A stretch of 64,000 nt of DNA from Vicia villosa (lineage: Eukaryota > Streptophyta > Magnoliopsida > Fabales > Fabaceae): NCBI RefSeq assembly GCF_029867415.1, contig NC_081186.1:30259915-30323914 (forward strand), given 5' to 3'. The notes below the pieces were generated by a model. The model was not told the origin of the DNA and searched no databases. It saw nothing but the letters and a program-made list of their open reading frames with translations. The translations under genes and the position numbers were made by a program. Of this stretch, positions 1,070-56,464 are shown one piece after another. Each line of letters begins with the position of its first letter. Positions within the stretch are counted from its first letter, which is position 1.

Positions 1070-1917
1070 TGTAACATCCCAAAATTTATTATTTAATTAA
1101 TTTAATTAAGTTTTAAATTAATTAATTTGAATTAGCATTTTATTGGAATTATGTGGGGAAGAAATAATAAAATGTAGTGTTGGGCCATTGGTGGAGTTAG
1201 TAAAGTGGGGGTGTTAGTGTGAAGAAGCCCATTACTAAATTATGTTATGTTTTGATAAAACAAGAAAATAAGAGAAAATTGAGAAAGGGAAGAGAAAGAC
1301 CTAAGAGGGAGAGAAGAAGAACTCATATACAAAAGCCATTTTCGTATTCATGGTGCAGCCTTCACAAAGTGGGTCATAACTCTCGGCTCGTAACTCCAAA
1401 TCAGGTAATTCTCGAAGATTCGGATTCTACACGAAATTTCCTTCGATTTGATATATTAATTCGTGTCAGGGAGGTTCTCGATGAGGGATATAAGCGAGTT
1501 TGAAGATGGGAGATTCTTGCTGAATTTGAGGGAAAAGGGCTTACGGGTTTGATGAAGAAGAAGGGGAAAAGTCCAGATTCTTGGCTAAGGTAAGGGGGGA
1601 CTCTTCCGATTAACATCTATTATCGGGTTATGGATAATAGGACTGATATAGATATATTATTTCATGTCAATTGAGTCGTATGATAGAGTTGGGATTTTGG
1701 GGATGTTTGTTGATAATTATCTGTTTTGATGAATCTCCGTGAATTTGGTGTTGTATGATGTTTAATGATGCATAATATATGTTATATGTGTGTATGATAT
1801 ATGTTGTGTGGCTGTTTTGTGGTGTTTGATCAACTTGAATCGATTTGGTCAAGGTTGAGGAATTTGGGATTCAAGTTCGTATGCCGTCATTTTGCGATTG
1901 AGAATCTGTGAAATCGC

Positions 1918-2070
1918 CAGTTCGCGCCGCGTCCATGGGTTGGCGCCGCGAACTGCTTGGCAGAAAGCTTAAGGAAAGTTATTTTACTCAGTTTGCGCCG
2001 CGTCCCTTGTTGGCGCCGCGAAGGCGTCGTTTCCTGGCAGCGCGTCGCGAACATTGTGTGGCGCCGCGTG
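1918..2070. repeat. GC-rich palindrome/GCGCCGCG cluster in LTR
   Basis: The motif GCGCCGCG (or one-base variants) recurs five to six times in 150 bases of otherwise AT-rich LTR. CAGTTCGCG at 1918-1926 and CGCGAACTG at 1947-1955 form an inverted repeat. The cluster ends just before CATAACTTTTGAATCG (about 2100), the motif that also follows the palindrome clusters of the other two Tekay LTRs. Confidence 0.7.
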
Positions 2071-2631
2071 CTGCTAGAGATTTTGGAAAGTTTAAAGATG
2101 CATAACTTTTGAATCGTTGGCCTGTTTTAAGTACCGTTTCGAGCAGGATGAAGATTATGAAATATTCTTTGTGTTATAATAATGAAATAAGCAGCATCTT
2201 GAATTTATTTTATCATCATTTGCTTGTTTTGATGTATGACGTGTTGTGGATATATATGATAAGACATGACGATGTATGCTGTGTTTAAAATATGAGTCGT
2301 ATGACGATTTGTTTGAATTGTATGAAGAAGCTTATGAGACATCCTATGCGAGGATATGAGTATGATGTGAATATTTTGTTAGTTTGATGAATGACGTATT
2401 GTTGACATATATGATGAAATGTGACAATATAAGATGTTGTTTTGAAAAACATTATTAGGTGATGATTGTTGAGAATTGTATGATGATGATTGATTGTTTT
2501 TGGAATGATGTGGATACATGTATGTTATTTCTTATTGATGATGATGATTGATGTGAATACATGTATGTTCTTTAATAATGATGATGATTGATTGATTGTA
2601 TTTGAATGATGCTAATGTATATAAACATACT

Positions 2632-2661
2632 TTGATGATGATGATGATGATGATGATGATT
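2632..2661. repeat. (GAT)n microsatellite
   Basis: About ten uninterrupted GAT triplets sit inside a longer GATGATTGAT-rich stretch (2450-2700) of the LTR. Confidence 0.9.
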
Positions 2662-2787
2662 TGAGTATTAGATGATGTTACTCATAGACTAGACGATGGT
2701 ATAAGTATGTTTCATATATGTTTGCATTCATTCATATTCATTGTTGATGCTGTATCCATGATGATGTGTTGGATCAGTGAAGGGCAT

Positions 2788-2887
2788 GATTCCCATTGTG
2801 TGGAATCTGTGCTGGCAGGGCCGTATCTTGATGATGTTGGATCGGTCATGGGTTATTCCCATTTGATGATGTTGGTACCACATGCAT
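2788..2887 (+). other. Stem-loops and conserved 14-mer in LTR
   Basis: GATTCC (2788-2793) pairs with GGAATC (2802-2807) around an 8-nt loop. ATGGG (2848-2852) pairs with CCCAT (2858-2862). GGTACCACATGCAT at 2874-2887 is identical in the other two Tekay LTRs (minus strand 47190-47203; plus strand 55801-55814 and 62513-62526). Confidence 0.6.
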
Positions 2888-3482
2888 AGTGTCAGTTGCA
2901 TTCATATGCATGACTTTTATAACATGAATGGATGTATTCCAGTGTTATAAATATTGATGATGTGTTGGTGGATTGTTTTGTGATGATGAAACTTGTCTGA
3001 ATGTCTGTTTATGAAACAATTGGGTGAATGATGTAACTATGATGTGTTATTATTTATGATTCAATAACATTTGTTAATTTGAATGAGACTCACCCTTACT
3101 GTTGACATTTTCAGATTGGCGAGTAGCGGCTTTAGCTTTGGTGAGGATAGCTCATAGGCCAATTTGTTTAAGTATAGCGTCGGTGTCATGCTCTGATATT
3201 GTAACACTGGGGGAACGCTAGTTTAGAGTTTATGATAATACTCTATTTTTGTTATTATCGGATTAATTTTGTGAGATATTGCATAGATGATGTTATGCTT
3301 ATCTGTTGATTAATGTTCCGTTGTGTAGAAACATGATTTTGTTAAATTGATAATTTTGTCCCTAAGTGAAGCATGACAATCGATTTATGATAATTGTTTT
3401 AAATTGAATTGTGGCACCCTTGTTTTCATGTTTTACTCTGAATCATTTTATAAATTTCCGTGGGGTTTAGAAGGGTGTTACA

Positions 3483-6248
3483 ATGGTACTGGCCATTTCT
3501 TGTAGAGTCCTATTCTATCGCTCTACAACTCCATTTTGCTGTGGAGTTCTAGGCAAGAGAAATCATGGGAAATACCATTTTCTTTGAAATACTCCTCAAA
3601 GAATCTGTTCCCAAATTCGCCACCATGATAACTTCTGACCTTTATGACTTTACACTCTTTCTCAGATTGAATCTGAGTGCAGAAGTCAAAGAACACTTGT
3701 GTTTCAAGAACTTTACCCAAGTTCAACGGCTATAATCATCTACGATGACTAATCCATATTTCTTCCCTCTGACAGAAGCTGTTTTGACTGGGCCAAACAG
3801 ATCAATGTGCAAAAGTTCTAGCGGCCTAGAGGAAGAAACAACATTCTTAGACTTGAATGCAGGTTTGGAGAACTTTCCCTTCTGACATGCTTCGCAAAGA
3901 GCATCTGATTTATATTTCAGATTTGGGGGTCCTCTGACCAGATTTAGTTTGTTAATCTGAGAAATCTTTCTCAAACTAGCATGGCCTAATCTTCTGTGCC
4001 AGACCTATTGCTCTTCGCTAATAGACATAAGACAAGTTACCTTATGATTCTTAAGATCTTGAAGATCAATCTTGTAAATGTTGTTCTTTCTCTTGCCTGT
4101 AAATAGGATTGAGCCATCCTTCTAATTTACAGCCTTACAAGACTTTTGATCAAAGATTATGCCATAACCATTGTCACTTAATTGACTTATGGACAACAAG
4201 TTATGAGCTAATCTATCTACTAGAAGAACATTAGTTATAGAAGGAGAGTTACCAGTACTTATGGTTCCTGAGCCAATTATCTTGCCCTTCTGATCTCCTC
4301 CAAACTTAACTTCTCCAGCAGATTTAAGCACCAGGTCTTGGAACATAGACCTTCTTCCCGTCATGTGTCGAGAGCGCCCAGAGTCCAGGTACCATGACAT
4401 GCTTTCCTTTGTCTTCTTTGCAGCCAGGGATATTTGCAACGGGAATAATCTTTTCCTTAGGTACCCACATTTTCTCGGGTCCTATCTTGTTAGTTCTCCT
4501 CAAGTTCTTATTGAACTTGGGTTTAGCATTATAATTAACAGGAGGTACAACATGATATTCCTTAGGTTGAGTCACATGATATTTTCTAGGTTGTGTCACA
4601 TGCTTCTTAGTGTGTGTAATGTGAAATCTTTTGGCATGTGATGTGAGCCTAATATCATGGGAGTGGCCATACTTGAACTGATCATACAATGGCTTTTCAT
4701 ATCATCTACAGGTTCAAGTTTGTATGGGGTATCACCCTCATAGCCAATGCCAACTCTCTTGTTTCCAGAAACAGCATATATCATAGAAGCAAGATGACTT
4801 CTACCAAAACTTCTAGATAAGAATTTCCTGAAACTCAAGTCATATTCTTTAAGAATATGGTTCAGGCTTGGAATAGATTCTTATGAACCAGAAAATGACT
4901 TAGCATCTTTGGATAGTTTTAAAACCTTTTCTTTAAGTTCAGAATTTTCTAATTCAAGCTTCTTAGTTTTGGATACAAAGAGCTTTCTTAGCTTTTTGTA
5001 CTTGATACTAAGCTTAGCCTTGATTTCAAGAATTTCAGCTAAACTGGAAGCAAGCTCTTCTCTAGTTAGATCAGAAAATACCTCTTCAGAGTCAGATTCT
5101 GATTCTGATGTAGATTCTGCTTCATCATCCACAGTAGCCATCAGCGCAATGTTAGCCTGCTCGCCTTCAGAGTCTGATTCTAATTCTGATGAATCTGAAT
5201 CATCCCAAGTTGCCATAAGACCTTTCTTCTTATGAAACTTCTTCTTGGGTTTCTCCTTCTGAAGCTTTGGACACTCACTCTTGTAGTGACCTGGCTCATT
5301 GCACTCGAAGCAAGTGACCTTCTTCTTGTCAGATCTTCTGCTTCCAGAAGATTCTCCTCTTTCAGACTTCTTAGAACTTCTGAAGTTCTTGAACTTCCTT
5401 TGTTTCCTCTTCCAGAGTTGGTTTACCCTTCTGGAGATCATGGACAGTTCATCTTCTTCTTCTTCTGATTCTGATTCTTCAGAATCCTCTTCTTCTGCCT
5501 AAAAAGCGTTAGTGCATTTTTTATTTAAAGATTTTAATGCAATAGACTTACCTTTCTTTTGAGGTTCATTAGCATCCAGCTCAATTTCATGACTCCTCAA
5601 GGCACTGATCAGCTCTTCTAAAGAGACTTCATTCAGATTCTTTGTTATCTTGAATGCAGCCACCATTAGGCCCCATCTTCTTGGCAAGCTTCTGATGATC
5701 TTCTTGACGTGATCAACCTTTGTATACCCTTTGTCAAGAACTCTTGATCCAATAGTTAGAGTTTGAAATCTTGAGAACATTGTTTCAATGTTTTCATCAT
5801 CCTCCATCTTGAAGGCTTCATATTTCTGGATCAAGGCAAGAGCTTTGGTCTCCTTGACTTGGGCGTTTCCTTCATGAGTCATTTTCAATAATTCATATAT
5901 GTCATAGGCAGTTTCTCTGTTTGATATCTTCTCATATTCAGCATGAGAAATAGCATTCAACAGAATAGTCCTACACTTGTGATAATTTTTGAAATGCTTC
6001 TTTTGATCATCACTCATTTCTTGTCTTGTGAGCGTTAAACAACTAGCTTTCACTAGATGTTTGTAACCATCCACCAGAAGATCCCATAAGTCACCATCTA
6101 AACCAAGAAAGTAACTTTCGAGTCTATCTTTCCAATATTCAAAGTTTTCACCACCGAATACTGGTGGTCTAGTGTAGCCATTGTTTCCATGTCCATTGTG
6201 TTGCTCAGCAGAGCCAGATGTAGATGTAGGTGGTGGAGTTTCAACCAT
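3483..6248 (-). pseudogene. Sirevirus (Maximus/SIRE-like) gag-pol relic
   Basis: Reading on the minus strand, an open gag segment (6248-5499, 249 residues with the UBN2-type core) is followed in another frame by an acidic and coiled-coil stretch with one zinc knuckle, CFECNEPGHYKSEC (about 5315-5270). Next comes a protease-like site WYLDSGRSRHMTG (near 4385), then a GAG-pre-integrase region and the start of the integrase core with HIDLFGP and VIVDDYSR (3974-3723). Breaks include a stop after VIVDDYSR, a frameshift near 3535 and a stop in the NRT region. The integrase stops at 3483 where the chromovirus LTR begins. Reverse transcriptase and RNase H are not in the window. The DSG..SRHMTG form and the single knuckle fit the sirevirus lineage. 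Confidence 0.85.
5499..6248 (-). CDS. Sirevirus Gag N-terminal half (open segment)
   Basis: This open segment of 249 residues begins MVETPPPTSTSG, about 80 bases downstream of the primer site, the normal place for a sirevirus gag start. It carries the conserved FGGENFEYWKDRLESYFLG motif near residues 33-51 and the IRSLPRRW motif near residue 190, both typical of copia capsid proteins (UBN2/Retrotran_gag). The frame closes before the zinc knuckle, so no complete Gag can be made. I list it separately because it is the least damaged part of this relic. Confidence 0.75.
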   Translation of the reverse strand: MVETPPPTSTSGSAEQHNGHGNNGYTRPPVFGGENFEYWKDRLESYFLGLDGDLWDLLVDGYKHLVKASCLTLTRQEMSDDQKKHFKNYHKCRTILLNAISHAEYEKISNRETAYDIYELLKMTHEGNAQVKETKALALIQKYEAFKMEDDENIETMFSRFQTLTIGSRVLDKGYTKVDHVKKIIRSLPRRWGLMVAAFKITKNLNEVSLEELISALRSHEIELDANEPQKKGKSIALKSLNKKCTNAF

Positions 6249-6318
6249 CTTGACTTAGCGTTTTTCTCTTCCTGAATCTTTTCTAAAGACGGTTAAGTGC
6301 TTGATCCTTAGAACCGGC

Positions 6319-6331
6319 GCTCTGATGCCAA
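6319..6331 (-). other. Sirevirus primer binding site
   Basis: On the minus strand TTGGCATCAGAGC resembles the complement of the initiator tRNA-Met 3' end (usual form TGGTATCAGAGC) with one change. It directly follows a CTATCCTTCA end of a sirevirus 5' LTR. Confidence 0.75.
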
Positions 6332-6333
6332 TT

Positions 6334-6380
6334 GAAGGATAGAAAAACACTTAGAAAGGGGGGGTTGAATAAGTGTATGT
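6334..6380 (-). repeat. Truncated sirevirus 5' LTR end
   Basis: Only the last 45 or so bases of the LTR remain on the minus strand, including the run of C (ATTCAACCCCCCCTTTC) common at the end of legume sirevirus LTRs. It joins Ogre-type sequence near 6380 without a visible LTR start, so the rest was deleted. Confidence 0.55.
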
Positions 6381-6420
6381 AATATGGTGAACTAACTCTA
6401 TTTGAAATGTACGGTAAGCA

Positions 6421-10757: not shown

Positions 10758-10761
<4 letters not shown>

Positions 10762-10813: not shown

Positions 10814-11550
10814 GAATTGTATCGTAGATTGTAATAAGCACATTAAAATATATATTTAAATTGTAGTGTGAATTTTCAAAAGAAAATGCTGCAAATAAAA
10901 ACAAAATATTGTATTTATATTTAAATTTTTATACCTAGAATTGACAAATATGTATTAAACCATAATAAAATAAATAAATTATATTTGAATGTGAAATTAT
11001 AATTAATATAATAGAGATATTATTAGTAAATGATATAAATTTCTACGTGAAACATAAATATAATATGCTAAAAATATTGGCAATATAATATAATTTTTGA
11101 GAAAAATTAATGATTGTATAGTGTAAGGTAATATATTTTATATGGATAATCTTACAACAATATTAAAAATTGAATCATATTGTTAGTATCTTCAACTTCC
11201 ATTTATGACCAACTTACAATTATCTTTATAACTGTAGTAATTCTTTAAGATAGCTATCAGGCTTGCTTACATATATGATCGACCTTGAAATTCTCTTAAT
11301 AACAACATTAATTTATTAAGATAGCTATGAGACATGAAACATCTAGAAAAATTAGTATAAAATAATTTTAGAGAATATAGATGTAATAGCAAGAGAAACC
11401 CATACTTTTGTTGAGAGCATTGAAAGACAATTCCTTGAATGTGAATATAGAATTACATTCAGACATCTGTATAAAAATAACGATAGGTTAAATTTGTGGA
11501 TGAACATTGAAAGATAGATATTTGATATGTTAAAAACATCAAAATACTTA

Positions 11551-13071
11551 GGGATAATAGCTATTTTGCCCCCTGCCATGTGGGCGAAGTTTGAAAAACG
11601 CCCCTGTAAAAAAAAAATTGGATTCGCCCCCTAACATATGAAGATTCCTCGGTTTTGCCCCTTCAAGAAATTTAATATTCAAAATTATTGACGTGACAAC
11701 CATTTTTTTATTTTTTTAAATTATTTATAATGACGTGGCATGCTTAGTTAGAATTTTTTATTATTTTTAATAATTTTTAATGACGTGGCAGGCTTAGTTG
11801 GATTTTTTATTTATTTTTTATTTATTTTAATTCCATGTGGCATGTTTTATTATTATTTAATTATTTGTTTGTTAAAATGTCAAATATTAAAGCCAAAATT
11901 TTGTCTCCCATGGGTATTGAACCCATGACCTATTAATTACGAGGGGGCACCACCAACCACCTTGATAGCTATTTGGGATAATAGCTATTTAAATAATTAT
12001 CAAGGTGGTTGGTGGTGCCCCTTGTAATTACTAGGTCATGGGTAGGGGTGGGAATAGGCCAGGCCGACTAACAGGGGCCTATGGCCCAGCCTACATGGGC
12101 CTAGGTTAGGCCAGGCTTTTTAGATAAATAGAAAAGGCCTAGGCTTTTTTATAAGCCTATTTAGCTAAAAAGGCTAGGCCACATGCCACATAAAAAGCCT
12201 TTTAAGCTTAAGAGGCCGGCCTATTTAAATACATATGAATAATTTTATTATTATTATATTATATTTTTTACTTTGAATTAAAAATATAAAAATAAATTTT
12301 AGTTATTTAGAAGAAATTATGAAAATAAGATGAAAAGAATCTTATGAACAATGTCATAAGTTGTTTCGATAAGTTCTCTCAAACAAATAATATCACAAAA
12401 TTTATGCTACTAGGTAAACTCAAATAAACTAATGCAAACAAACATTTAATCTCATTGATCTTTTAATTTGTTAATCTATATAAAGACGAGTTGAATGACT
12501 TATTTACAAAGGTTCAAATGAAATAGGTTTTTAAGTAGGCTAATAGGCCAATCAGGCCTTCAAAAAGGCCAGACCCAGGCCAAAAAAATAAGCCTATGAT
12601 AGGCTACAGGCCAGGCTTAGGCTTTGAATATTATAGTAGGTCAGGCTCAGGCTTGGCAAAGCCTAGCTCGGCCCAGCCTATTCCCACCCCTAGTCATGGG
12701 TTCAATACCCATGGGAGACAAAATTTTGGCTTTAATATTTGACATTTTAACAAATAAATAATTAAATAATAATAAAACATACCACATGGAATTAAAATAA
12801 ATAAAAAATAAATAAAAACTCCAACTAAGCCTGCCACGTCATTAAAAATTATTAAAAATAATAAAAAATTCCAACTAAGCATGCCACGTCATTATAAATA
12901 ATTTAAAAAAATAAAAAAATGGTTGCCACGTCAATAATTTTGAATATTAAATTTCTTGAAGGGGTAAAACAGGGGAATCTTCATATGTTAGGGGGCGAAT
13001 CCAATTTTTTTTTTACAGGGGCGTTTTTCAAACCTCGCTCATATGGCAGGGGGCAAAATAGCTATTATCCC
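11551..13071. mobile_element. Foldback Mutator-like element (MULE-MITE)
   Basis: The ends GGGATAATAGCTATTTTGCC form near-perfect inverted arms of about 420 bases each, meeting at a short centre near 11974-11999. A perfect 9-bp target duplication, aaatactta (11542-11550 and 13072-13080), supports a Mutator origin. There is no transposase frame. The right arm is split by a hAT element at 12043-12692. The centre repeats the terminal motif (GGGATAATAGCTATTT at about 11977-11992), as if two copies had fused head to head. Each arm also carries GGGTTCAATACCC, which resembles the B box of tRNA genes. Confidence 0.85.
12043..12692. mobile_element. hAT-like MITE nested in the MULE
   Basis: Inverted ends TAGGGGTGGGAATAGGC are perfect over 17 bases. 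The flanking 8-bp duplication gtcatggg (12035-12042 and 12693-12700) is exact. The interior is made of repeated AGGCCTAGGC-like units and AT-rich filler, with no coding capacity. It shares the TAGGGGTGG terminus with the elements at 7396 and 21063. Confidence 0.9.
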
Positions 13072-13601
13072 AAATACTTACCTGAGATGCCATTAACAAA
13101 TGAATAATCTTTTATCCTGTAACAAAAATAAAATTAACAATCAATACATATGTATAAAGTAAGAAATAGGAGATAAAAACTATGATACAAATTTAAAGAT
13201 TAGCATAAAAATGAAGTTCTGAAACTAAAGTTACATATTTATACTAACATCAAGAAAGAGGTCCAATAGAAATTAATAAAATAATAACAGAAAAATTCTT
13301 ATTAAAATTTGATATTAATACAATTATTATGTGAGCAATTATAATTAAAGAGTTTTATAAACATTAAATTCAATAAAAATGTAACAGAAATATTAAAATT
13401 AATTTATAGTTATGTAAGAATTAAATTTTAAAAATAGTATGATAAACCGTCAATTCATGATTATTTAAAGGAGAAATTAATGAAAGGCGTTATAAAAATA
13501 ATTTTCAATTAAATTATATTAAAGATAAAAAATTATAAAAATTAATTTATAGTTATATTAGTGTTATTATTTTTTATAATTTATATTATTAATATATTAA
13601 A

Positions 13602-21373: not shown

Positions 21374-21745
21374 TGTTGAAATATAAACTTGATTTGGGCC
21401 TAAATTAATTATTTGGTTCCTTGGGCTTAGTTATTTTGGGCTTAAGTAATTATGGGTCATGTTTCTAGAGAATTCTTGTAGTGTTTGGAGTGTCTAGATA
21501 TTTCTTATGGTTGTAATATTATCTAGAATACTCTTTGGATCTCTAGAGTTGAGAACTCTCTAGAATTAGTGTGTCTAGAGTTCTCCTTAGAGTAGTATAA
21601 ATAGAGATGTAATCCTACACATTTGTATAAAGCAAAAATACAAAGTTCTTTCTTCCATAAAGAATTCTCCTACCTATCAAGTTTCCATTAAAGCCTCCAA
21701 TATTTCTGAACAATTTCCCTCATCACAAAGGCTTTATTTCCAACA
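21374..21745 (+). repeat. Copia 5' LTR
   Basis: 372 bases from TGTTGAAATATAAAC to TTTCCAACA, with a TATA-like AGTATAAATAGAG at about 21593. TCTAGAG/CTCTAG short palindromes recur seven or more times between 21475 and 21590. Confidence 0.92.
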
Positions 21746-25417: not shown

Positions 25418-25789
25418 TGTTGAAATATAAACTTGATTTGGGCCTAAATTAATTATTTGGTTTTTTGGGCTTAGTTATTTTGGGCTTAAGTAATTATGGG
25501 TCATATTTCTAGAGAATTCTTGTAGTGTTTGGAGTGTCTAGATATTTTTTATGGTTGTAATATTCTCTAGAATACTCTTTGGATCTCTAGAGTTGAGAAC
25601 TCTCTAGAATTAGTGTGTCTAGAGTTTTCCTTAGAGTAGTATAAATAGAGATGTAATCCTTCACATTTGTATCAAGCAAAAATACAAAGTTCTCTCTTCC
25701 ATAAAGAATTCTCCTACCTATCAAGTTTCTATTCAAGCCTCCAATATTTCTAAACAATTACTCTCGTCACAAAGGCTTTATTTCCAACA
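25418..25789 (+). repeat. Copia 3' LTR
   Basis: 372 bases, the same length as the 5' LTR, preceded by AAGGGGGAA. It has about 15 substitutions against the 5' copy and no gaps by eye. Confidence 0.92.
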
Positions 25790-26861
25790 TTTACCTCCCA
25801 TACCTGCCACAAATAATGAAGGGGAACCAAGTGAGAGAGAAGCACATCATATATGGTGGATAACAATCACGTATACATGAACGATTCTTGTTCTTCCCAT
25901 GTGACATATGCAAGGTTCATAGTTTGTGAGTCACGATCAGCATCAGATATATAATGTTCAGGAATTTGTGGAGAAACAATGTACTTTTCGCCCCTTTTGT
26001 GCCTTGAAGCACACCTTCAACAAGTTTAACTAAATTCGTAGTTTTAAAGGAGAGGCTACAACCGAGAGAGATTGGTCATTGCTGGAGTTAGTTATGAAAA
26101 GAGAAGGACTATAATTGGTCATTGCTTTTGTGCCTTGAATTAGTATTATTTACTAATATGATTCTTGTTTTACAAGGAAACTCCTCAATTAGTACAGTTT
26201 CATGAAACAAGACACAAGTTTCCTAAAAAAAATATCCCAACAGAAATAATGCCAACTTGTACCCTATTTTTCTCTATCAATTATCAATGTAATTTATAAC
26301 TACCAGTGCCTATGGTGAAGAAACTTGAGTCTAGTTTCCAATTTCACTTAAATAAGCTCAATCCTATTAATATACATGTATACATCATTAACTAGAACTT
26401 ACAACCAAATTATCTCAACCAAAATTTAACAAAATCAGGACATTCCAAAGAGTAATTCACGTAAAAAAATGTGTGTAGGTTTTAATAGATCAAGTTTCAT
26501 CCAAGAAAAATATATATAAATAAAATTACCAAAAGTATACACATATCAACTCATAGACAACATAACATTATTTCTATACTGTAACTTGAAACTAATATTT
26601 CTCCCCCTTTGCATAACCTATTATAGTCCTTCTAAAGCATATCTTTGCTGAATACTAATTCACTAACCAGAACTTACAGCCAAATTATCTCAACAAAATT
26701 AGGACATTCCAAAGCCTATTTCACATAAAGAGGTTTTATTAGTTCATTTTTCATCCCAGAACAATAGGTATAGAGAAAGTTATGAAGAAATTACCAAGAG
26801 TATACACATATGATAACATAACACTATTTACATCCTTTAACTTGAAATTAATATTTCTCCA
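25790..26861. other. Intergenic with a 276-bp-period direct duplication
   Basis: No gene is visible. The block starting near 26385 (CTAGAACTTACAACCAAATT) recurs at 26661, and both copies end in ACTTGAAA.TAATATTTCTCC (about 26607 and 26862). The second copy stops where the chromovirus LTR fragment starts. Confidence 0.7.
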
Positions 26862-27465
26862 TGCATAGTGTCAGTACATTGCATATATACATTGTTATAA
26901 TATGATTGGAAGATTTTCAGTGTTATTTCCTGGTGATATGATTGATTATAATTGGTGTTGTTGATGAATGTTTCTGAAAATCTAAATATATTGAAGTTGG
27001 GTGAATAATGTGCTTATGATGTTTTATTGTTTATGAACTCATAACATTTGTTAATTGCGAATGAGACACACCCTTACTGTTGACATTTTTCAGATTGAGG
27101 AGTAGCGGCTATTGAGCTTGGTGAGGATAGCTTATAGGCTAGTCTGTTTAGTCGTAGCGTCGGTGTCATGGTCTGATTTATAACACTGGGGAACGTTTGT
27201 TTTAGAGTTGTTTGATAACTCTTATTTTATTTTGTTGAATAATTTTGTTAAGTTTTGGAGATGATAAACGCTGGTTTAATATTATTCAACTTCTGAACCT
27301 TATTTCCGCTGTGTTAACATGTTTCGGTGAATATTACTTATTGAGTTCCTCGTGGTAAGCATGACATGTGTCTTAAAAATGATTTTTGGCGAGTTGTAGC
27401 ATCCTTTTTCACATGTTACTCTGAATTATTTATTATATTCCGTGGAGGTTTAGAAGGGTGTTACA
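26862..27465 (+). repeat. Truncated 5' LTR
   Basis: It begins in the ATGCATAGTGTCAG part, which lies right after the 14-mer in the 3' LTR at 1070, contains the acceptor-like TTGACATTTTTCAG ending at 27093, and ends GGGTGTTACA. The first 1.8 kb of the LTR is missing. Confidence 0.85.
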
Positions 27466-27469
27466 ATAG

Positions 27470-27481
27470 TGGTATCAAAGC
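27470..27481 (+). other. Primer binding site
   Basis: TGGTATCAAAGC matches the initiator tRNA-Met type site with one change, five bases after the LTR end. Confidence 0.8.
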
Positions 27482-27600
27482 ATAGTCGGTCGTTGTGACC
27501 AGAGTCTTATCGTTATTATTCCTTTGTATACGACTAGTGTGATGTTTACATTGTCGATACTTTTGTTCTAATAGAATTTGTTTTGTGAATTAGCAGAAAA

Positions 27601-28331
27601 ATGGATGGAAGAAGTGGAAGAAACGATGATGCAATTGCCGAAGCTTTGGGCATGATTACTGGTGTGCTGGGAGGGAATCCCAACGGAGCTGCACTGGGTG
27701 CTAACAGGCAGCTGGGAGAATTTTAGAGGAACAATCCTCCGTTGTTCAAAGGCACTCAGGATCCTGAAGGTGCTCAGAATTGGCTGAAGAAAATCAAAAG
27801 GATTTTCCGAGTGATAGATTGTGCTGAGAACCTGAAGGTGAGGTATGGTACTCACATGTTATCTGAGGAAGTTGATGACTGGTGGGTTGCTACTAGAGTT
27901 GAACTGGTGTAGCAATCACTTGGGTGGTGTTTAGGAGAGAATTTCTGAGGAGGTATTTTCCGGAAGATGTTCGGGGAAGAAAAAAGATTGAATTCTTGGA
28001 GCTGAAGCAGGGTAATATGTGTATTCCTGAGCATGCTTCAAAGTTTGTAGAATTTGCTAAGTACTATACTCACTACATAAATGATGAGGCTAGTGAATTC
28101 TTGAAGTGCATCAAATTTGCGAATGGCCTTCGTGATGAAATCAAGCAAGGTATCAGATATCAGAGGATTCACCGATTTGCTGACTTGGTGGATTGTAGTA
28201 GGATCTTTGAAGAGGATAATATCAAAGTGAAGTCATCCCACTCTCGCGAGTTGGTTGACAAGAAAGGGAAGAAACATATGGACCGAGGTAAACTATATGG
28301 TAGAGGAAATCCTAAAGTTGGTGATCTGAAC
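27601..28331 (+). pseudogene. Tekay-like gag fragment
   Basis: The frame starts [17 protein letters not shown] and is clearly homologous to the gag at 52954-51338 (minus). An in-frame TAG at about 27724 and a frameshift near 27905 break it. The capsid motifs FKGTQDPEGA, WFRVID-like [10 protein letters not shown] and the [13 protein letters not shown] tract are still visible. The frame ends before the zinc knuckles, at the deletion junction. Confidence 0.88.
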
Positions 28332-28497
28332 CTTATTTCCAATGTGTTAACATGTTTCGGTGAATGTTACTTATTGAGTTCCTCGTGGTAAGCATGACAT
28401 GTGTCTTAAAAATGATTTTTGGCGAGTTGTATCATCCTTTTTACATGTTACTCTGAATTATTTAATATATTGCTTGGGGGTTTAGAAGGGTGTTACA
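28327..28497 (+). repeat. 3' LTR end fragment
   Basis: The last 170 bases of the LTR, ending GGGTGTTACA, with about 90 percent similarity by eye to 27293-27465. Confidence 0.85.
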
Positions 28498-46626: not shown

Positions 46627-47251
46627 TGTAACACCCTTCTAAACCCCCGCGGAAAATATAATATTATCAGAGTAATAACACATCAAGGATGCTACAATTA
46701 TTAGATAAATAAAAACATCAAGTCGATTGTCATGCTTTATTAGAAATTAACCAATATCAAACAAGTGTTTAGCACAGCGGAACTTAATTCAACAGTATTA
46801 GGAAACAACTCCACACAAATACTCAATACATAATCCATAGCCAAAATGGCAACAAAGTATAACAAGTAACTCTAGACTAATCGATCCCAGTGTTAAAATC
46901 AGAGCATGACTCGACACGAACTACGGGCTAGCCTACAAGCTATCTTCACCCAATCAAGACGCCTCTCCATCCTTAATCTGAAATCATCAAAGTAAGGGTG
47001 AGTTTCATTCGAATTAAGAACCATTATACAATCATAAGCAATAAGATCTCATAGAAATTATCATCCATTCAACATACTTATAATCGGAAATTATTATAAC
47101 AGGCAAACATCAGCACATGAGCATCATCTATCACACCACACAATCATCCAATTATATCAAGCTATAATGCAATGAATGGACTGACACTCATGCATGTGGT
47201 ACCAAGATTCGTGAATCACATCACAGGACTTCTCTCTTTGATACTGCCCTC

Positions 47252-47354
47252 TAGTCGCTCACACCCCACATGGGCACACGACTACTGCCTCATCGCTCAC
47301 ACCCCGCATGGGCACACGATGACTTCCCGCTAATCTCCGCACAATGGGAATTAG
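47252..47354 (-). other. Three stem-loops, two with covarying stems
   Basis: In plus-strand coordinates: TAGTCG (47252-47257) pairs with CGACTA (47279-47284), and TCATCG (47290-47295) pairs with CGATGA (47317-47322). Both enclose 21-nt loops that differ at one position (CTCACACCCC[AG]CATGGG...). CTAAT (47330-47334) pairs with ATTAG (47350-47354) around a related loop. Two stem positions differ between the first two hairpins, and both partner bases differ to match. Confidence 0.75.
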
Positions 47355-47750
47355 CCTTCCAATGCAAATGATTTATGAATAATGCACACATGACACATAC
47401 TTACATCATCATACATCATCATCATTCCGATGCTTAACATCGCTTATCACCTCTTACCAATAACATCATAACAAGTATGTACATGTATAAGCATCATTCA
47501 ATCATTCACAAACATACACCACATCATCACAATAACATACACATCGCATTAATGTTAATTGCCACCTTAATCCAATTCAACAATAATTTAATTGAATAAA
47601 TAAATAAGTCGGCCACTGCCCGTATTATTACTTCATCAAATAAAGCATCTCATTAGCTTCGCAACGCCCAAAACGGCACATAAAACGGATACTCGGATCA
47701 AAAGTTATGGGTTTTTGAAAATAAAACATTTTTATAAAATATGCTGCAGA

Positions 47751-47927
47751 ACCCGGGTTGTCCCTACATGGGAACCGGTTCCTGGCAGTTTCCCAAAACA
47801 CGCCTCTGATTTTTACTATGGGGAACCGAGTTGTCCCTACATGGGAACCGGTTCCCAGCTACCCAGAATCCACACGCTCTGTTTTTTATAAGGGGGAACC
47901 GGTTCGTCCCACATGGGAACCGGTTCC
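47751..47927. repeat. GGAACCGGTTCC palindrome cluster
   Basis: Perfect palindromes: AACCCGGGTT 47751-47760, GGAACCGGTTCC 47771-47782, GGGAACCGGTTCCC 47843-47856, GAACCGGTTC 47896-47905 and GGAACCGGTTCC 47916-47927. They are joined by GTCCC(T)ACATGGG, itself an inverted repeat, so the unit occurs about three times. In the other LTR the cluster is split by the nested element (first copy at 54233-54244, the rest after 63164). Confidence 0.93.
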
Positions 47928-48544
47928 TACGTACCTGCACAGCCAAATTCACCATTTTGACAGCATTTACCCTATCCCATTTCCCCAATTTCAGGTACAT
48001 ACGAACATAGCACACAAATACCATCAATTTTCACATCATCACACATTTCAGACAAGTTTTATCCAAGTATTAACAGCATATATCATGAGTATTGACAGAA
48101 TCATGTAATTCATACAAATTCATCAAAACCTAACAAAATTCCCAAACCCGACACGTACGATTGGACTAGACAATAATCCTAATCAATCATACTACCTATA
48201 ATCGCATAAGGATTACTAACCCGAAGAATCCCCCCTTACCTCAAAGTCGAATCTTCGAAGTTCTTCTCCCCCTTTGGCTCTTCTCACTTTCACGTGTTCT
48301 TCCTTTCTCAGACTCTGAATCCTTTGCTTCTACTTCCTCTTTTCCCAAATCCTTTTATTTTATGAAAAATAAAATAAATATTATAATGGGCTTGCTTAGC
48401 TAACACCCCCCTTCTGCTAATCACCACTCTAGCCCAAACCAAATATTTCATCATTTTCCACATAATTCCCAAAAATTATTAATTCTTATAATTTAATTAA
48501 AGAAAAATAATTAAATTAATAACAAGAATTAACGGGGTGTTACA

Positions 48545-48586: not shown

Positions 48587-51351
48587 TCAAATGAAGAGTT
48601 CGGGATAAGAGTCTTTCATCTGACTCTCCAGCTCCCACGTAACATTTCCACCTGCAACTCCTTCCCAAGCTACTCGGACTAAAGCTATTTCTTTACCACG
48701 TAGTTGCTTTATCTTCCGATCTTCAATCCTCATAGGCAACGCCTCAACCGTCATATTATCTATCACTTGCACATCATCCACCTGGATTACATGAGACGGA
48801 TCCGCAATATATTTCCTCAATTGAGATATATGGAATACGTCATGTAGGTTCGCAAGTGTTGTTGGTAAAGCAATGCGGTAAGCCACCTCTCCTACTCTTT
48901 CCGTAATCTGAAACGGACCAATGAAACGCGGCGTCAACTTCTTTGACTTTAGTGCTCGACCAACACCCGTCGTAGGAGTTACTCTCAGAAACACATGATC
49001 TCCCTCTTGAAATTCAAGTGTTCTTCGCCTTTTATCATGATAGCTCTTCTGACGACTTTGAGAAGCCTTCATCTTCTCTTGAATCATCTTAATCTTTTCC
49101 GTCGTCTCTTGAAAATTTCTGGTCCAATCACTGCACCTTCACCAGATTCATACCAACACAGTGGTGTCCTACACCTCATACCATACAGAGCTTCAAATGG
49201 AGCCATACCAATACTCGAATGGTAGCTGTTGTTGTAAGTAAACTCAATCAACGACAAATAACTATCCCACGCACCACCTTTTTCCAATACACAAGCACGC
49301 AATAGATCTTCCAATGATTGAATCGTCCTTTCAGTCTGACCATCAGTCTGTGGATGATAAGCAGAACTCAACCTCAATTTAGTACCCAAGGCCTTCTGTA
49401 ACCCTTCCCAAAATCTGGATGTAAATCTTGGATCTCTATCTGATACGATACTCGAAGGAATACCATGCAAACTTACTATTTTCTCAATGTACAACTGTGC
49501 CAACCTTTCCATCGAATAATCCATCCTCATCGGTATGAAGTGAGCAGACTTCGTCAGTCTATCCACAATAACCCAAATGGCTTCATAGTTCTTAGCTGTT
49601 CTTGGCAATCCAGATAAAAAGTCCATGGATATGCTATCCCACTTCCATTCATGAATAAATAAAGGTTGCATAGTCCCATACGGCTTCTGATGTTCGATCT
49701 TTGACTTCTGACAAGTCAAACAAGAATAAACAAATTCAGCTATTTCCTTTTTCATTCCCGGCCACCAGAATAACTTCTTCAAATCATGGTACATCTTAGT
49801 AGCACCAGGGTGAATACTCAATCCACTACGATGTCCTTCTTCCAAGATACTCTTCTTTAGTTCAGTAACGTCAGGAACACAAACACGGTCGCCAAATCTC
49901 ATTATGCCATTCTCATCAATTCTGAACTCACCTCCTTTTCCTTGGTTAATCAAAGTCAATCTGTCAACTAGTCCCACATCTTCCTTCTGCCTATCTCTGA
50001 TTTCATCAAGAATTCCACTTTTCAGCTTTAGCATACCTAGCTTAATACTATTCGAAGTGCCTTCACATACCAAACTTAAATCCCGGAATTGTTCAATCAA
50101 ATCTAGTTCTCGCACCATCAACATCGACATATGCAAGGACTTCCTACTCAAAGCGTCAGCAACAACATTCGCCTTACCCGGATGGTAATTCAGCTCAAAA
50201 TCATAATCTTTAAGGAACTCTAACCACCTCCTCTGTCTCATATTAAGCTCCTTCTGGTCGAATAGGTACTTAAGACTCTTATGATCACTAAATACCTCGA
50301 ACCGTGAACCATAAAGGTAATGTCTCCATAATTTCAACACAAACACCACTGCTGCCAACTCCAAGTCATGAGTCGGGTAATTCTTCTCATGCACTTTAAG
50401 TTGTCTCGACGCATAAGCGACTACCTGTTGGTTCTGCATTAGTACACCTCCAAGTCCCATTAATGAAGCGTCACAATACACCACAAAAGATTCTGCTGGA
50501 TTCGGCAAGATTAAAATAGGAGCACTGGTCAGCCTCTTCTTTAATTCTTGAAACCCTTCTTCGCACTTCGAGTCCCAAACGAATGCTTGACCCTTCCTAG
50601 TCAACTTTGTCAATGGTAGAGCTAACTTTGAAAATCCTTCTATAAACTTCCGATAGTAACCTGCAAGACCCAGAAAGCTACGAATTTCAGTCACGGACTT
50701 CGGAGCTTCCCACTGAGACACAACTTCTACCTTTGCTGGATCTATGGCAATACCGTTCTTGGAAATTACATGACCCAGGAAACTCACTTCACTTAACCAG
50801 AAATCACATTTCGACAGTTTGGCATAAAGCTTCTTCTCTTTCAACACTCCCAGTACAATTCTGAGATGCTCTGCATGTTCTTCTTCACTTTTGGAATATA
50901 TCAGAATGTCGTCAATGAACACCACGACAACTTTGTCAAGATAAGGATGAAAAATCCTATTCATATATTCCATGAAAACACCAGGTGCGTTAGTAACTCC
51001 AAACGGCATCACAGTGTATTCATAATGACCATACCTTGTTCTGAACGCAGTCTTCTGAATATCGTCCGTCTTCACACGAATCTGATGATACCCAGACCTC
51101 AGATCAATTTTAATGAATATACTAGCTCCGACCAACTGATCCATCAAATCATCAATCCTCGGCAGTGGATACCGATTCTTGATAGTAACTTTGTTCAGTT
51201 GTCTGTAGTCTACACAGAACCTCATAGATCCTTCCTTCTTCTTTACCAATAACACCGGTGCACCCCACGGTGACACGCTCGGACGAATGAACTCCTTCTC
51301 CAACAATTCTTCGAATTGAATCTTCAATTCGGTCAATTCAGATGCAGACAT
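48587..51351 (-). pseudogene. Outer chromovirus pol (RT-RH-IN-chromodomain), one frameshift
   Basis: The 755-residue open segment 51351-49084 holds RT ([30 protein letters not shown]), RNase H ([27 protein letters not shown]), the integrase zinc region ([16 protein letters not shown]) and core (DFLSG, SDRDPRF, E in DGQTERT). A one-base insertion near 49086 sends it out of frame after GPEI. The last 166 codons (49087-48587) continue in another frame with the integrase GPF/Y-type region (TPRFIGPFQITERVG) and a chromodomain ([11 protein letters not shown] to TWELESQMKDSYPELF). The first codon of this segment is not a real start, since it continues gag after another one-base insertion at about 51347. 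Both lesions are single bases in runs of identical bases. Confidence 0.9.
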
Positions 51352-52954
51352 TTCTATAAGGTGCCATCGATATAGGACTGGTTCTAGGAACTAACTCAAT
51401 GGCAAACTCTACTTCCCTTTCAGGTGGTAGCTCTCTAACATCTTCTGGAAAAACTTCTGGAAATTCTCGTACCACCGGTAGTTCATTACTCATTATTCTT
51501 CCTTTCACTTCCATCGACGTAAAAAGCATAAACACGGCTGCCCCGTCTTGAATTGCTTCACCCACTTGTCTTGCAGTCATTGCCAACTCATCGATATTAA
51601 CTTCTTCAGGAAAGATGACCGTCTTCGTAAAACAGTTGATATGAACTCGGTTAAATTGCAACCAGTTCATCCCCAAAATAACGTCAAGTTGTTTGAGTGG
51701 AAGGCACACTAAGTCCATTCCAAACTTCCTACCAAATATATCAACAGGACAGTTCAAACATGCAGATGAAGTGGTCACTGAACCCGACGCAGGAGTATCA
51801 ATAACCATACTTCCACCAATCTGTGATATCTCTAAATTTAGCCTCTTAGCACAATCCAATGAAATAAACGAGTGAGTCGCACCAGTATCAATAATCGCAA
51901 TTAAAGGTGTGTTATGTATGAAACACGTACCTTTAATCAGTCTATCCTCCGGAGTAGTTTCTGATCCAGACAAAGCAAAGACTTTCCCTCCAGCTTGGTC
52001 CTTCTTTGGTTTGGTGCACTGCGGACTGATATGACCCTCTTCGCCACAGTTATAACAAGTTACTGTTCTCATTTTGCAGTCAGCACCAATATGACCCATT
52101 CTGTTACACTTGAAGCGCTTCTTCTCTTCTTTCTTGCACTCATTCCTCTTATGTTCTGTTTCACCACAGTTGAAGCACCTAACGGGAGCACCAGAATCTC
52201 CTCCACTAGGCCTTTTCCAATTACCAGCTCTTGGGTTTCCCCTACCATATGGTGTACCTCTGTCCATAGGCTTCTTACCCTTCTTATCAACTAACTCGCG
52301 AGAGTGAGATGATTTCAGCTTAAGACTGTCTTCCTCAAAGATTCTGCTACAGTCCACTAAATCAGCAAATCGGCGAATTCTTTGATACCTGATACCCTGT
52401 TTGATCTCATCACGAAGACCATTCTCAAACTTGATACACTTAGAGAATTCTCCAGCTGCATCGTTGGGGTAGTGTATGTAGTTCTTAGCCAATTCCACAA
52501 ATTTGGAAGCATATTCCGGCACTGTCATACTACCCTGTTTCAGCTCCAAGAACTCAATTTCCTTCCTTCCCCGCACATCTTCAGGGAAGTACTTCCTCAG
52601 AAATTCTCTCTTGAATATGGCCCAAGTAATCGCAATCCCATCTGAATCCAACTCAGTCCTAGTAGTAACCCACCAGTCATCAGCTTCTTCTGATAGCATG
52701 TGAGTACCGTACCTCACCTTTAGATTTTCTGCACAATCAATTACTCGGAAGATCCTCTCGATCTCTTTCAACCATTTTTGAGCACCATCAGGGTCATGAG
52801 TGCCTTTGAAAAGTGGAGGATTGTTCCTCTGAAAGCTGTTCAACTGCCTGTCACCACCAATCGCAGCTCCATTAGCATTCCCTCCCAGTACACCAGCAAT
52901 CATGCCTAGAGCCTCCGCGATAGCGTCATCGTTCCTTCCACCTCTTCCAGCCAT
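51338..52954 (-). CDS. Outer chromovirus Gag-protease (open to frameshift)
   Basis: Starts [17 protein letters not shown], 119 bases after the primer site, and runs 538 codons. The capsid domain (about 20-230) has [10 protein letters not shown] and [13 protein letters not shown]. Three zinc knuckles follow ([25 protein letters not shown] lacking the usual first spacing, [14 protein letters not shown]), then protease with [11 protein letters not shown] near residue 360. It ends at the frameshift just before RT. In the intact relative at 56582 these domains are continuous with pol in one frame, so here it would yield only a Gag-PR product. Confidence 0.9.
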
Positions 52955-53072
52955 TGTTCTGCTAAATCACAAAACAATCTCATCAGAATAAAAGTATCGA
53001 CAGTGTTTACCTTACACTAGTCGCATACAAGGGAACACTGACACTAAGACTCTGACTCTAACGACCGACTAT

Positions 53073-53084
53073 GCTCTGATACCA
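53073..53084 (-). other. Primer binding site of outer chromovirus
   Basis: TGGTATCAGAGC on the minus strand is an exact initiator tRNA-Met type site, a few bases after the 5' LTR end at 53089. Confidence 0.92.
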
Positions 53085-53088
53085 CTAT

Positions 53089-54262
53089 TGTAACACCCTT
53101 CTAAACCCCCGCGGAAAATATAATATTATCAGAGTAATAACACATCAAGGATGCTACAATTATTAGATAAATAAAAACATCAAGTCGATTGTCATGCTTT
53201 ATTAGAAATTAACCAATATCAAACAAGTGTTTAGCACAGCGGAACTTAATTCAACAGTATTAGGAAACAACTCCACACAAATACTCAATACATAATCCAT
53301 AGCCAAAATGGCAACAAAGTATAACAAGTAACGCTAGACTAATCGATCCCAGTGTTAAAATCAGAGCATGACTCGACACGAACTACGGGCTAGCCTACAA
53401 GCTATCTTCACCCAATCAAGACGCCTCTCCATCCTTAATCTGAAATCATCAAAGTAAGGGTGAGTTTCATTCGAATTAAGAACCATTATACAATCATAAG
53501 CAATAAGATCTCATAGAAATTATCATCCATTCAACATACTTATAATCGGAAATTATTATAACAGGCAAACATCAGCACATGAGCATCATCTATCACACCA
53601 CACAATCATCCAATTATATCAAGCTATAATGCAATGAATGGACTGACACTCATGCATGTGGTACCAAGATTCGTGAATCACATCACAGGACTTCTCTCTT
53701 TGATACTGCCCTCTAGTCGCTCACACCCCACATGGGCACACGACTACTGCCTCATCGCTCACACCCCGCATGGGCACACGATGACTTCCCGCTAATCTCC
53801 GCACAATGGGAATTAGCCTTCCAATGCAAATGATTTATGAATAATGCACACATGACACATACTTACATCATCATACATCATCATCATTCCGATGCTTAAC
53901 ATCGCTTATCACCTCTTACCAATAACATCATAACAAGTATGTACATGTATAAGCATCATTCAATCATTCACAAACATACACCACATCATCACAATAACAT
54001 ACACATCGCATTAATGTTAATTGCCACCTTAATCCAATTCAACAATAATTTAATTGAATAAATAAATAAGTCGGCCACTGCCCGTATTATTACTTCATCA
54101 AATAAAGCATCTCATTAGCTTCGCAACGCCCAAAACGGCACATAAAACGGATACTCGGATCAAAAGTTATGGGTTTTTGAAAATAAAACATTTTTATAAA
54201 ATATGCTGCAGAACCCGGGTTGTCCCTACATGGGAACCGGTTCCTGGCAGCTTCCCAAAACA
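53089..54262 (-). repeat. 5' LTR of outer chromovirus, distal part
   Basis: This is a near-identical copy of 46627-47799. It is interrupted at 54263 by the nested element and continues from 63164. Confidence 0.95.
54258..54262. other. Target duplication aaaca, left copy
   Basis: aaaca at 54258-54262 and again at 63159-63163. The uninterrupted LTR (47796-47800) has a single copy, so the duplication is exact. Confidence 0.95.
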
Positions 54263-55061
54263 TGTAACACCCATAAATGTGTTTTTCTGATTAATTGTGA
54301 TGTTTGCTACATTTTCCTAATTTTACCGTTTTCGAGTCGAGTCAGTCGGTAAATATTAATTATGTTAATATTTTACTTATTACTTTCCATGTGTGTAATT
54401 ATTATGTTTTGGGTGTTAATTGGTTAGAATTAATGTTTAGTGACATTTGGGCCAAAATTAGAATTTATGAAAGTTGAGTGGGGGAAAATGAGAAGTAGAG
54501 AAATAGAAAGAGATATTTTGATATAGAGAGAAAATGAGATATTTTGAGATAGAAAGAAAGAAAGAGAACTTGGGAAGAGAAGAGAAAGAAGAGAAAAACA
54601 AAGAGAAGAAGAGAGTGTAGGAATCCAAACCAAGCTAGAGCCAAGAATCCAACCAAGGTAAGGGGGGTGAATATAGTTTATCTTGATTGTATGGTTCTTG
54701 TAGTTTTGTATGCTTTGTTCTTGTTCTTCCTCTTTTCCAAGCTTGCTCAACAATGGCAAATTGTGTGTTTTGTGAGTTTTGAAGATATAAACTTGATTTT
54801 GTGGTGTGTATGTGTACTATGATGATAGATATTCCCATGGATCATGTTTGTTTTTCATTTCTCCATGTTTTCTTGCTTATGAAGAAATTTAGGTCAAAGA
54901 TAATATGTGATGATCCAACCATATGATAATCATGGATTAGGTGTATATATAGCATGTTTGTGTTGTATTGGTGTTGGGATGAAGGTTTAAATGGGTTTTG
55001 AATGGTTTAGAGGGAGCTGAGACGGTCTGTTGCAAAACTGGTTTTTCTGGGTTTACGCAGG

Positions 55062-55183
55062 TCCGCTGAGCGGAGGGGGTCCGCTGAGCGGAGGTTCTTT
55101 TGCAGGAGATCTCTGTCTGGGTCCGCTGAGCGGAGGTTCTGTATTTTTGTTTGGTGATTCCCTGTCTGGGTCCGTTGAGCGGA
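55062..55183. repeat. TCCGCTGAGCGGA palindrome cluster
   Basis: Copies at 55062-55074, 55080-55092, 55122-55134 and 55171-55183 (last one TCCGTTGAGCGGA), plus a half copy AAGCGGA at 55188. The 3' LTR has the same set from 61765, with a change in copy two. Confidence 0.93.
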
Positions 55184-55596
55184 GCTCAAGCGGACTGTGT
55201 GAAATTTTGTTTTCCAAACTTTGTTTTGTTGTATCTTTTGAACCGTAGGTCGTTTCTACGCGTCGTTTGAAGTATTATGAGAACCCTTGAGTATGCTTTA
55301 TGATAAAGAGGAGTGTGTTGGTGGTTGAATGATTTTTCATATATGTATTTTGTGAAATGATATTTGCTAATCAAGTATGTTTTGACGGTATACGTGTGCT
55401 GTGTGAATATGAACGCCTGAGTGGCAATTTTGATGATGTATCCGTGTAGAATAATATAACCGGTGTGATGTAGATATGTGACCGAGTTATATTGTTGTTG
55501 TTGTTGTTATGTAATTGAGTCGTTTGTATGCACAGCATGACATTTCATTACGTTAATGGCGGAATGCTATTAACAGGTGGCCTGAATTGGCAATTA

Positions 55597-55778
55597 TTAC
55601 CAGTGGGAGCTTAATGCTAGGTAAAAAGGTGTATTTGCCCGAGTGGCAAGAGGTCATCAGTGGGGGCTAGATGCTCGATGACGGTTAGTCGTAGCTTACT
55701 GCTCGACAAAGGTGTATTTTCCTTAGGGAAAGAAGTCCCAGCATAATGCTCGGCAAGGTGTATTTGTCATAATGACAA
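55597..55778 (+). other. Array of seven small stem-loops
   Basis: Pairs: TTACC 55597/GGTAA 55620; TTGCC 55635/GGCAA 55645; GTCATC 55653/GATGAC 55677; GTCG 55688/CGAC 55704; TTTCC 55718/GGAAA 55727; GCAT 55741/ATGC 55746; TTGTCAT 55764/ATGACAA 55772. Loops and linkers repeat (AGTGGG.GCT.ATGCT and GGTGTATTT ahead of the second, fifth and seventh), while stem sequences differ from unit to unit. Confidence 0.65.
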
Positions 55779-56464
55779 GGAGGAGTTTTACTCCGGATTT
55801 GGTACCACATGCATACGCATAGTCGAGTCTCATTCATCATCGTCGGTCTTTATAATTTATGTTAACATTCATGTACCGCATTACTTATATATTGTCTGTG
55901 GTTGACTCGTTGGATTATCTTGTTATATGATTCTTAATGATATTTGTTGGCATTACTATATTGATCATGCTTTCTTTATGAATTATATTCTCACCCTTCT
56001 GCCTTAATGTTACCTACTCGTGGGTAATGTGCAGGTGATCTGCAGGTGTAGGTGCTCTCTTTGTAGTCGTCCGTTTTGGTGTCGTCCGCTCATGATACGT
56101 AACACCTAGGGGGGGGGGGATCGAACACTTATTTTGTAGATAATGCTTATAGGATCCTTTTGATGTATATTTGATCCTTTAGATGCATTCGTATCATGTA
56201 TTTTGAATACCTTCTCATGCGAAGTATTTTGGAAGAATGTTGTGGATATTTTGTTTACCGATGCATTTATATAAGTATGAATACATTCAGGTGTTTATGA
56301 GTATCCGTCCTCTTTGATTATTTGTGTTACGCATCTTTTGCGAGTATGCTATGTTTGGTTACGTGGTTACTTAAGTGTAACGCCCTAATTATTTTTATGA
56401 ATTTAATTTTTATACTCTGATAATTATACCTATATGCCTGGGTAGAATTGGGGTGTTACATTAG

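Follow-up and report, generated by a model that had tools for sequence, protein, structure and literature searches.

How can one and the same transcript serve both as messenger and as genome? For long terminal repeat (LTR) retrotransposons, this is a long-standing question. We here analyzed a 64-kb stretch of Vicia villosa DNA (the window), which holds three related LTR retrotransposons (elements A, B and C) along with part of a fourth (element D). LTR ends of the TG..CA type, a primer-binding site (PBS) and a polypurine tract (PPT) are all present and place them among the Ty3/gypsy LTR retrotransposons; element A (54263–63158) is nested in the 5′ LTR of element B (53089–63906) and splits that LTR in two. 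A first-pass annotation of this stretch had noted that three mostly dissimilar LTRs share a series of motifs in the same order, and had proposed that each carries a leader intron. Our analysis suggests that the 5′ leader of these elements is probably split: splicing from a donor in the LTR (D1) to an acceptor directly before gag (A2) would yield a gag-pol mRNA devoid of the PBS, with unspliced RNA serving as the genome. The elements are laid out as follows.

1058–1069, plus strand: PPT of element C, GTGGGGGAGAGT
1070–3482, plus strand: 3′ LTR of element C (TGTAAC...GTTACA)
1251–1263, plus strand: TATA-like TTTGATAAAACAA of element C, 335 nt upstream of D1, a putative promoter
26860–28497, plus strand: element D, fragment
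26860–27470, plus strand: 3′ part of the truncated 5′ LTR of element D, absent from the first-pass annotation
27470–27481, plus strand: PBS of element D, with one change
46627–48544, minus strand: 3′ LTR of element B
51338–52954, minus strand: gag-protease open reading frame of element B
53073–53084, minus strand: PBS of element B, TGGTATCAGAGC, which we take to match initiator Met-tRNA
53089–54262, minus strand: distal part of the 5′ LTR of element B, with the remainder at 63157–63906
54263–56460, plus strand: 5′ LTR of element A, 98.9% identical to its own 3′ LTR at 60966–63158
56465–56476, plus strand: PBS of element A
63157–63906, minus strand: proximal part of the 5′ LTR of element B, carrying a D1 motif (63592–63603) and a TATA-like word (63717–63729)

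The motifs shared by the three LTRs proved real. The donor, an exact 14-mer, CTCACCCTT, the CAG sites and ACTTTTGA/TCTTTTGA (TTTTGA) all lie where the first-pass annotation had placed them, the D1 borders (1589/1590, 54657/54658 and 48240/48239) fit the positions of the D1 motif AGGTAAGGGGGG, and the 14-mer was recovered at 2874, 55801 and 62503 on the plus strand and at 47190 and 53652 on the minus strand. Ranked by U1 pairing energy, D1 comes first among the 178, 151 and 193 GT sites of the three window LTRs (178 being those of element C), and 28–32 of the 6,550 GT sites in the entire window equal or beat it. With GT..AG borders and a U1-pairing donor, the proposed intron has the makeup of a U2-type spliceosomal intron, A2 of element A being weak. 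The sites are listed below, a slash marking each proposed splice border.

1588–1599, plus strand: D1 of element C, AG/GTAAGGGGGG, exon 1 ending at 1589
1590–3114, plus strand: intron 1 of element C, from D1 to the LTR acceptor A1
2874–2887, plus strand: 14-mer of element C, GGTACCACATGCAT
3089–3097, plus strand: CTCACCCTT of element C, 5′ of A1, branch-site-like and putatively the branch site
3115–3140, plus strand: micro-exon 2 of element C (26 nt), between A1 and a second donor, D2 (TTTG/GTGAGGAT)
27094–27120, plus strand: exon 2 of element D
27590–27596, plus strand: A2 of element D, TTAGCAG, with the gag ATG at 27601
46977–46950, minus strand: exon 2 in the 3′ LTR of element B (28 nt), A1 falling after 46978
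47190–47203, minus strand: 14-mer in the 3′ LTR of element B
48230–48241, minus strand: D1 motif in the 3′ LTR of element B
52951–52966, minus strand: A2 of element B, TTTAGCAG/AACAATGG, abutting the gag ATG (also TTATTCTGATGAGATTGTTTTGTGATTTAGCAG/AACAATGG)
53439–53412, minus strand: exon 2 in the distal part of the 5′ LTR of element B, A1 falling after 53440
54656–54667, plus strand: D1 of element A, AG/GTAAGGGGGG, exon 1 ending at 54657
54658–56579, plus strand: whole excised stretch proposed for element A, D1 to A2, 1,922 nt, as suggested by the joined copy L065 and the ATG counts below
55801–55814, plus strand: 14-mer of element A
55990–56034, plus strand: CTCACCCTT to acceptor A1 of element A (GTGCAG/GTGATC)
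56569–56585, plus strand: A2 region of element A, GTGAAGTTTAG/AGATGG, with the gag ATG at 56582; a weaker acceptor, judged by eye

A2, which the first-pass annotation had not included, lies directly before the gag ATG, ~100–140 nt past the start of the PBS. Thirteen out of 15 PBS-bearing leaders (10 and 5 from two leader sets; L-numbers denote LTR or leader sequences sampled from the genome) have YAG at this place, with the qualifications that L085 has AAG, L008 is interrupted, L012 has a changed ATG, and three of these leaders are near-identical copies of element A with the weaker A2. Removal of D1 to A2 would take out ~1.7 kb in element B (inserted element A not counted) to 1.9 kb in element A, the PBS included. 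This stretch is heavily loaded with ATGs: the D1–A1 part holds 100 in element C, 65 in B and 49 in A (37.5, 29.8 and 30.2 expected), and the complete unspliced leader of element A holds 63. Exon 1 of A and B has no ATG in its last 95 nt, so that none would remain upstream after D1–A2 splicing; removing D1–A1 alone would leave 14 (A) or 9 (B) ahead of gag. Among the 20 natural LTRs with D1 (L065 left out), 14 lack an ATG in the last 120 nt before it.

The second donor D2, likewise new relative to the first-pass annotation, lies 26–28 nt past A1 in elements B, C and D, and its conservation across 15 LTRs amounts to 0.87. In element A and in L003, L009, L013, L016 and L019, though not in L001, A1 is directly followed by GT. 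Most plausibly, A1 serves a skippable micro-exon of 26–28 nt as its acceptor, with D2 at the other end.

Is there any sign that these sites are joined? Were spliced RNA occasionally reverse-transcribed, joined genomic copies would be expected, as is the case for human L1 SpIREs. The D1–A1 and D1–A2 joins and the D2 site were written down before the junction searches, which covered one genome and used the reversed pattern as control. At up to one mismatch, the D1–A2 pattern matched ten times and its control not once. One of these matches, L065, is a full join, in which an LTR start with U3, 305 nt ending in ...TTGGCTAAG, continues directly into gag AACAATGG. Aligned with L006/L036, the nearest relative in hand, homology to exon 1 stops exactly at D1 and homology to gag begins exactly at A2, the two breakpoints having only AG in common. 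In L056/L057, L061 and L062, by comparison with the D1 regions L088–L091, an unspliced leader has its final bases replaced by the end of the element's own exon 1—GATTCATCGAG (11 nt) in L061, ATTCATCGAG (10 nt) in L062 and TTGGCTAAG (9 nt) in L056/L057. These amount to three leaders with two types of exon 1; L061 and L062 may go back to a single event, and L059 and L060 resemble L056. The D2–A2 pattern had a single match in the genome (L094; control, 0), whose own exon 2, 27 nt long, has at its 3′ end the same 11 nt that precede the ATG, ATTAGTGCTTG. Exon–exon joined molecules were hence seen as genomic copies only, one full (L065) and the remainder short footprints (L056/L057, L061, L062 and L094). 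Taken together, footprints, L065 and L094 would imply that D1, A1, D2 and A2 are all used, in one product that skips exon 2 (D1–A2) and another that employs it.

These joins recast the leader intron of the first-pass annotation: its start at D1 is supported, and the full join found is D1–A2 rather than D1–A1. The proposed length of 1.3–1.5 kb is that of the D1–A1 interval; the D1–A2 stretch would measure ~1.7–1.9 kb, with the PBS inside.

The architecture extends well beyond the three LTRs in which it was first noticed. Within the window, the 14-mer has 6 matches at up to two mismatches (0.28 expected), and the 2.03-Gb genome contains 27,794 exact copies (13,878 + 13,916) as compared with none of the reversed control. 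Our LTR sample was drawn via the 14-mer, which every member therefore carries by design, whereas D1, A1 and A2 played no part in the selection. From 100 listed 14-mer loci, the first 30 were taken, 20 of these were lengthened, and the downstream side of 20 more was added; 26 non-redundant LTRs entered a word count, 8 of them cut 1,500 nt upstream. In this set, AGGTAAGG (at D1) occurred in 21 LTRs, CTCACCCT (before A1) in 22 and GGGTGTTA (at the LTR end) in 22. The maximum over ten shuffles was 18, for T-rich words, and ATGATG-type and A+T words also reach 20–23 in the real set. Seven of ten single-linkage LTR clusters contain no window LTR. Using patterns that tolerate small changes, a CTCACCC-like site was found downstream of the 14-mer in 26 of 30 loci and in 16 of the 20 further ones. 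The D1 motif lies between LTR start and 14-mer in 17 of the 20 lengthened loci, and L036, one of the three without it, has GTAATGG in its place. In an alignment of 15 B/C-type LTRs, conservation reaches 0.87 at the D1 island, compared with 0.55 and 0.64 on its two sides; it is higher still at several islands other than splice sites. One stretch, TGTCATGCTCTG ... TGTAACACTGGG (3184–3211 in element C, 69–97 nt past A1), is strongly conserved in B/C-type LTRs and is not explained by splicing. In L052, at ~1500, the LTR stops ~20 nt into exon 2 and is followed by sequence that, by eye, reads like the end of an integrase.

How might such a leader work? Transcription would begin within the LTR, upstream of D1 and at a purine-rich exon 1. 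Six natural B-type LTRs and L065 have a TATA-like word 116–127 nt ahead of D1, four further natural LTRs have one elsewhere, and given this irregularity we infer the start site rather than read it off. Exon 1 would end at the strong donor D1. In one form of the transcript, D1 would be joined to A2, discarding the rest of the LTR, the PBS and dozens of upstream ATGs to give a translatable gag-pol mRNA; in the other, the 26–28-nt micro-exon between A1 and D2, near the 3′ end of the LTR, would be included or used en route. Unspliced RNA, which retains the PBS and the whole LTR, would be the sole template for intact new elements, and transcripts would fall into two pools, one of messengers and one of genomes. 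The need for unspliced RNA to make intact copies would by itself preserve the introns in the LTR during evolution. The short footprints could arise when reverse transcriptase, while copying spliced RNA, jumps to an unspliced molecule where the two have a few bases in common beside the junction; for this, joined RNA has to be present and to get into the particle.

At the DNA level, splicing of the leader is well supported by the sites, their conservation and joins at exactly D1–A2 and D2–A2. The efficiency of splicing and the division of labor between messenger and genome are what we infer from this arrangement. A role of the intron in marking genomic RNA, as the first-pass annotation had supposed, through a putative packaging or dimer-initiation signal is plausible; no hairpin was seen as shared when 194-nt pieces around the 14-mer were folded for the 26 LTRs, and the mean unpaired probability there was 0.46 for TGGTACCA, 0.22 for ATGCAT and 0.36 overall. 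We lean, if only slightly, toward a broader proposition: an entire, very abundant plant Ty3/gypsy group may translate gag-pol only from spliced RNA, with two leader introns and a micro-exon of 26–28 nt (or a ratchet site in A-like families) through which the PBS, dozens of upstream ATGs and what is left of the LTR are lost, so that splicing would act as a switch between protein and new copies. If true, splicing ahead of gag with loss of the PBS would solve the question of messenger versus genome in a simple way for these very abundant plant repeats, and the exact junctions supplied here can be looked up in existing long-read RNA.

Several observations weigh against a spliced leader. L065 is the only full intron-less copy found, and it is broken after part of gag by the later insertion of an LTR in reverse orientation. 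The partial joins match over 9–11 nt only, 2–5 nt of which also occur in the normal leader, and some were required by the search pattern; mutation or microhomology repair could have made some of them (rough chance, 0.0013 per lineage). In L094, ATTAG is also present in the normal leader, leaving six informative nucleotides, four of them set by the search pattern. L063 and L064, of which only the D1 of L064 was compared, may be point mutants and were not counted as joins, and the own D1 of L059 was not found in the fetched stretch. The A-family D1–A2 pattern had no match genome-wide, and the A2 of element A is weak. As for the D1–A1 pattern, none of the five examined out of nine exact matches is a join, all being point-mutated acceptors, and one-mismatch matches number at least 100. 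Ten of the 20 natural LTRs with D1, that of element A included, have no TATA-like word, and exon 1 of element C carries three ATGs in its last 120 nt. Finally, an expressed set from sunflower is, in the excerpt of that source, devoid of any Tekay element (PMC7730604).

Could the same data be explained otherwise? The long intron might be removed stepwise by recursive splicing, with A1/D2 as a ratchet point and some A-like families having AG/GT without an exon. The GT directly after A1 in element A and its like would suit such a route, as would the short distance of at most 28 nt from A1 to D2 in elements B, C and D; on the other hand, AG/GT is common at ordinary plant exon starts. We regard it as rather unlikely. 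The single D1–A1 leader intron of the first-pass annotation, whose spliced RNA would keep the PBS and a long 5′ leader, draws on the fact that D1 and A1 are conserved islands and that A1 is likely used, given that D2 follows it and a D2–A2 join exists. Yet the joins found end at A2, the exact D1–A1 matches examined held no join, and the ATGs left ahead of gag would persist, which makes this intron as the complete event improbable.

Alternatively, D1, the 14-mer, CTCACCC and A1 might be conserved for transcription, as an enhancer/promoter array of the LTR whose splice-like look is incidental. The 14-mer and other conserved islands such as TGTCATGCTCTG are indeed not splice signals, and CATGCA resembles the seed RY motif. 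This would leave the joins at exactly D1–A2 and D2–A2, as well as the A2 sites before gag, without explanation, and we give it little credence. Equally doubtful is that deletions or point mutations at the DNA level, and not spliced RNA, gave rise to the joined copies. The joins are few and short, the examined D1–A1 matches are plain point mutants and L063/L064 may be so too; but the breakpoints of L065 fall precisely on D1 and A2, which have 2 nt in common, and the footprints match the own exon-1 end (L056/L057, L061 and L062) or the own micro-exon end (L094). A repeat-mediated deletion as the origin of L065 was considered and is unlikely, as the L006 leader is without the 9-nt repeat of L056-type leaders.

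Retroviruses whose major splice donor lies in or near R offer a comparison: their packaging signals follow this donor, so that unspliced RNA is the genome. Retroviral Gag, however, is translated from unspliced RNA, whereas vetch gag-pol would come from spliced RNA. The intron of EVADE lies within the coding region, that of the vetch elements would begin in the LTR and end before gag. Among further systems, for which we draw on excerpts of the sources, BARE1 forms messenger and genome pools from two promoters, the end of gag carrying a 104-nt intron (PMC3735527). Vetch elements would resemble it in separating messenger from genome RNA with splicing involved (PMC3735527), but would do so by splicing upstream of gag with PBS removal. 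Ogre and EVADE are plant LTR retrotransposons whose introns control which protein is made (PMC12786077, PMC6317226), although the Ogre intron separates gag-protease from reverse transcriptase instead of reaching from the LTR to just before gag. For Diaspora of soybean, splice donors are predicted within the LTR and acceptors on either side of the gag start, albeit in another lineage (Athila) and as prediction only, without conservation or joined copies. Human L1 SpIREs are genomic copies of 5′UTR-spliced RNA that were likewise found by a junction probe (PMC5860796), yet L1 is a long interspersed element that uses target-primed reverse transcription and whose splices give crippled copies. Drosophila iERVs, of the Metaviridae, share a donor upstream of gag and a short exon, but their acceptor serves env, not gag (PMC12992720). 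As far as the excerpts go, introns upstream of gag were, according to a 2005 paper, unreported until then, and a 2025 review considers plant LTR elements generally intronless, with Ogre and EVADE as notable exceptions (PMC12786077). Sunflower has spliced isoforms for two elements (PMC7730604). In the literature searched, as represented by these excerpts, we came across no plant LTR element for which an intron ahead of gag had been demonstrated, the intron places of the sunflower isoforms not having been learned.

Turning to the proteins, Pfam reported gag, zinc knuckle, protease, reverse transcriptase, RNase H and integrase parts on five pieces of elements A and B, each domain in A or B, the rve match of B being below the curated cut-off. 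For the C-terminal piece of element A, Pfam reported no chromodomain; a relative, P0082, carries PF00385. Tekay, a chromovirus clade, is the provisional label used here and in the first-pass annotation. One scan of viral contigs revealed no plant relatives among them.

Some further observations concern the junction before gag. L075 and L079 retain LTR type, PBS, leader and acceptor, and after A2 have no gag start in the stretch read; they share GTGTTNGATTGAAACAAGTGGGGGAG instead and are perhaps non-autonomous partners. L058 (G000:C2, match at 13008772) has gag joined exactly at A2 to sequence that is unmatched in the fetched LTRs and ends in ...CCAGAATTTCAAG; it could be a chimeric retrocopy with a foreign exon spliced to A2. 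In the gene models P0213 and P0227 of pea and P0179 and P0183 of vetch, differing N-terminal sequence stands a few codons ahead of the gag Met, a weak hint in favor of the split leader. L058 and these chimeric models suggest exon trapping by such elements, as hints only.

Elsewhere in the window, direct repeats of 372 bp (21374–21745 and 25418–25789), 96% identical and 4 kb apart, perhaps delimit another LTR element, and an inverted repeat of 382 nt (11548–11929 and 12693–13074), 97% complementary with 763 nt between its arms, is perhaps a fold-back element.

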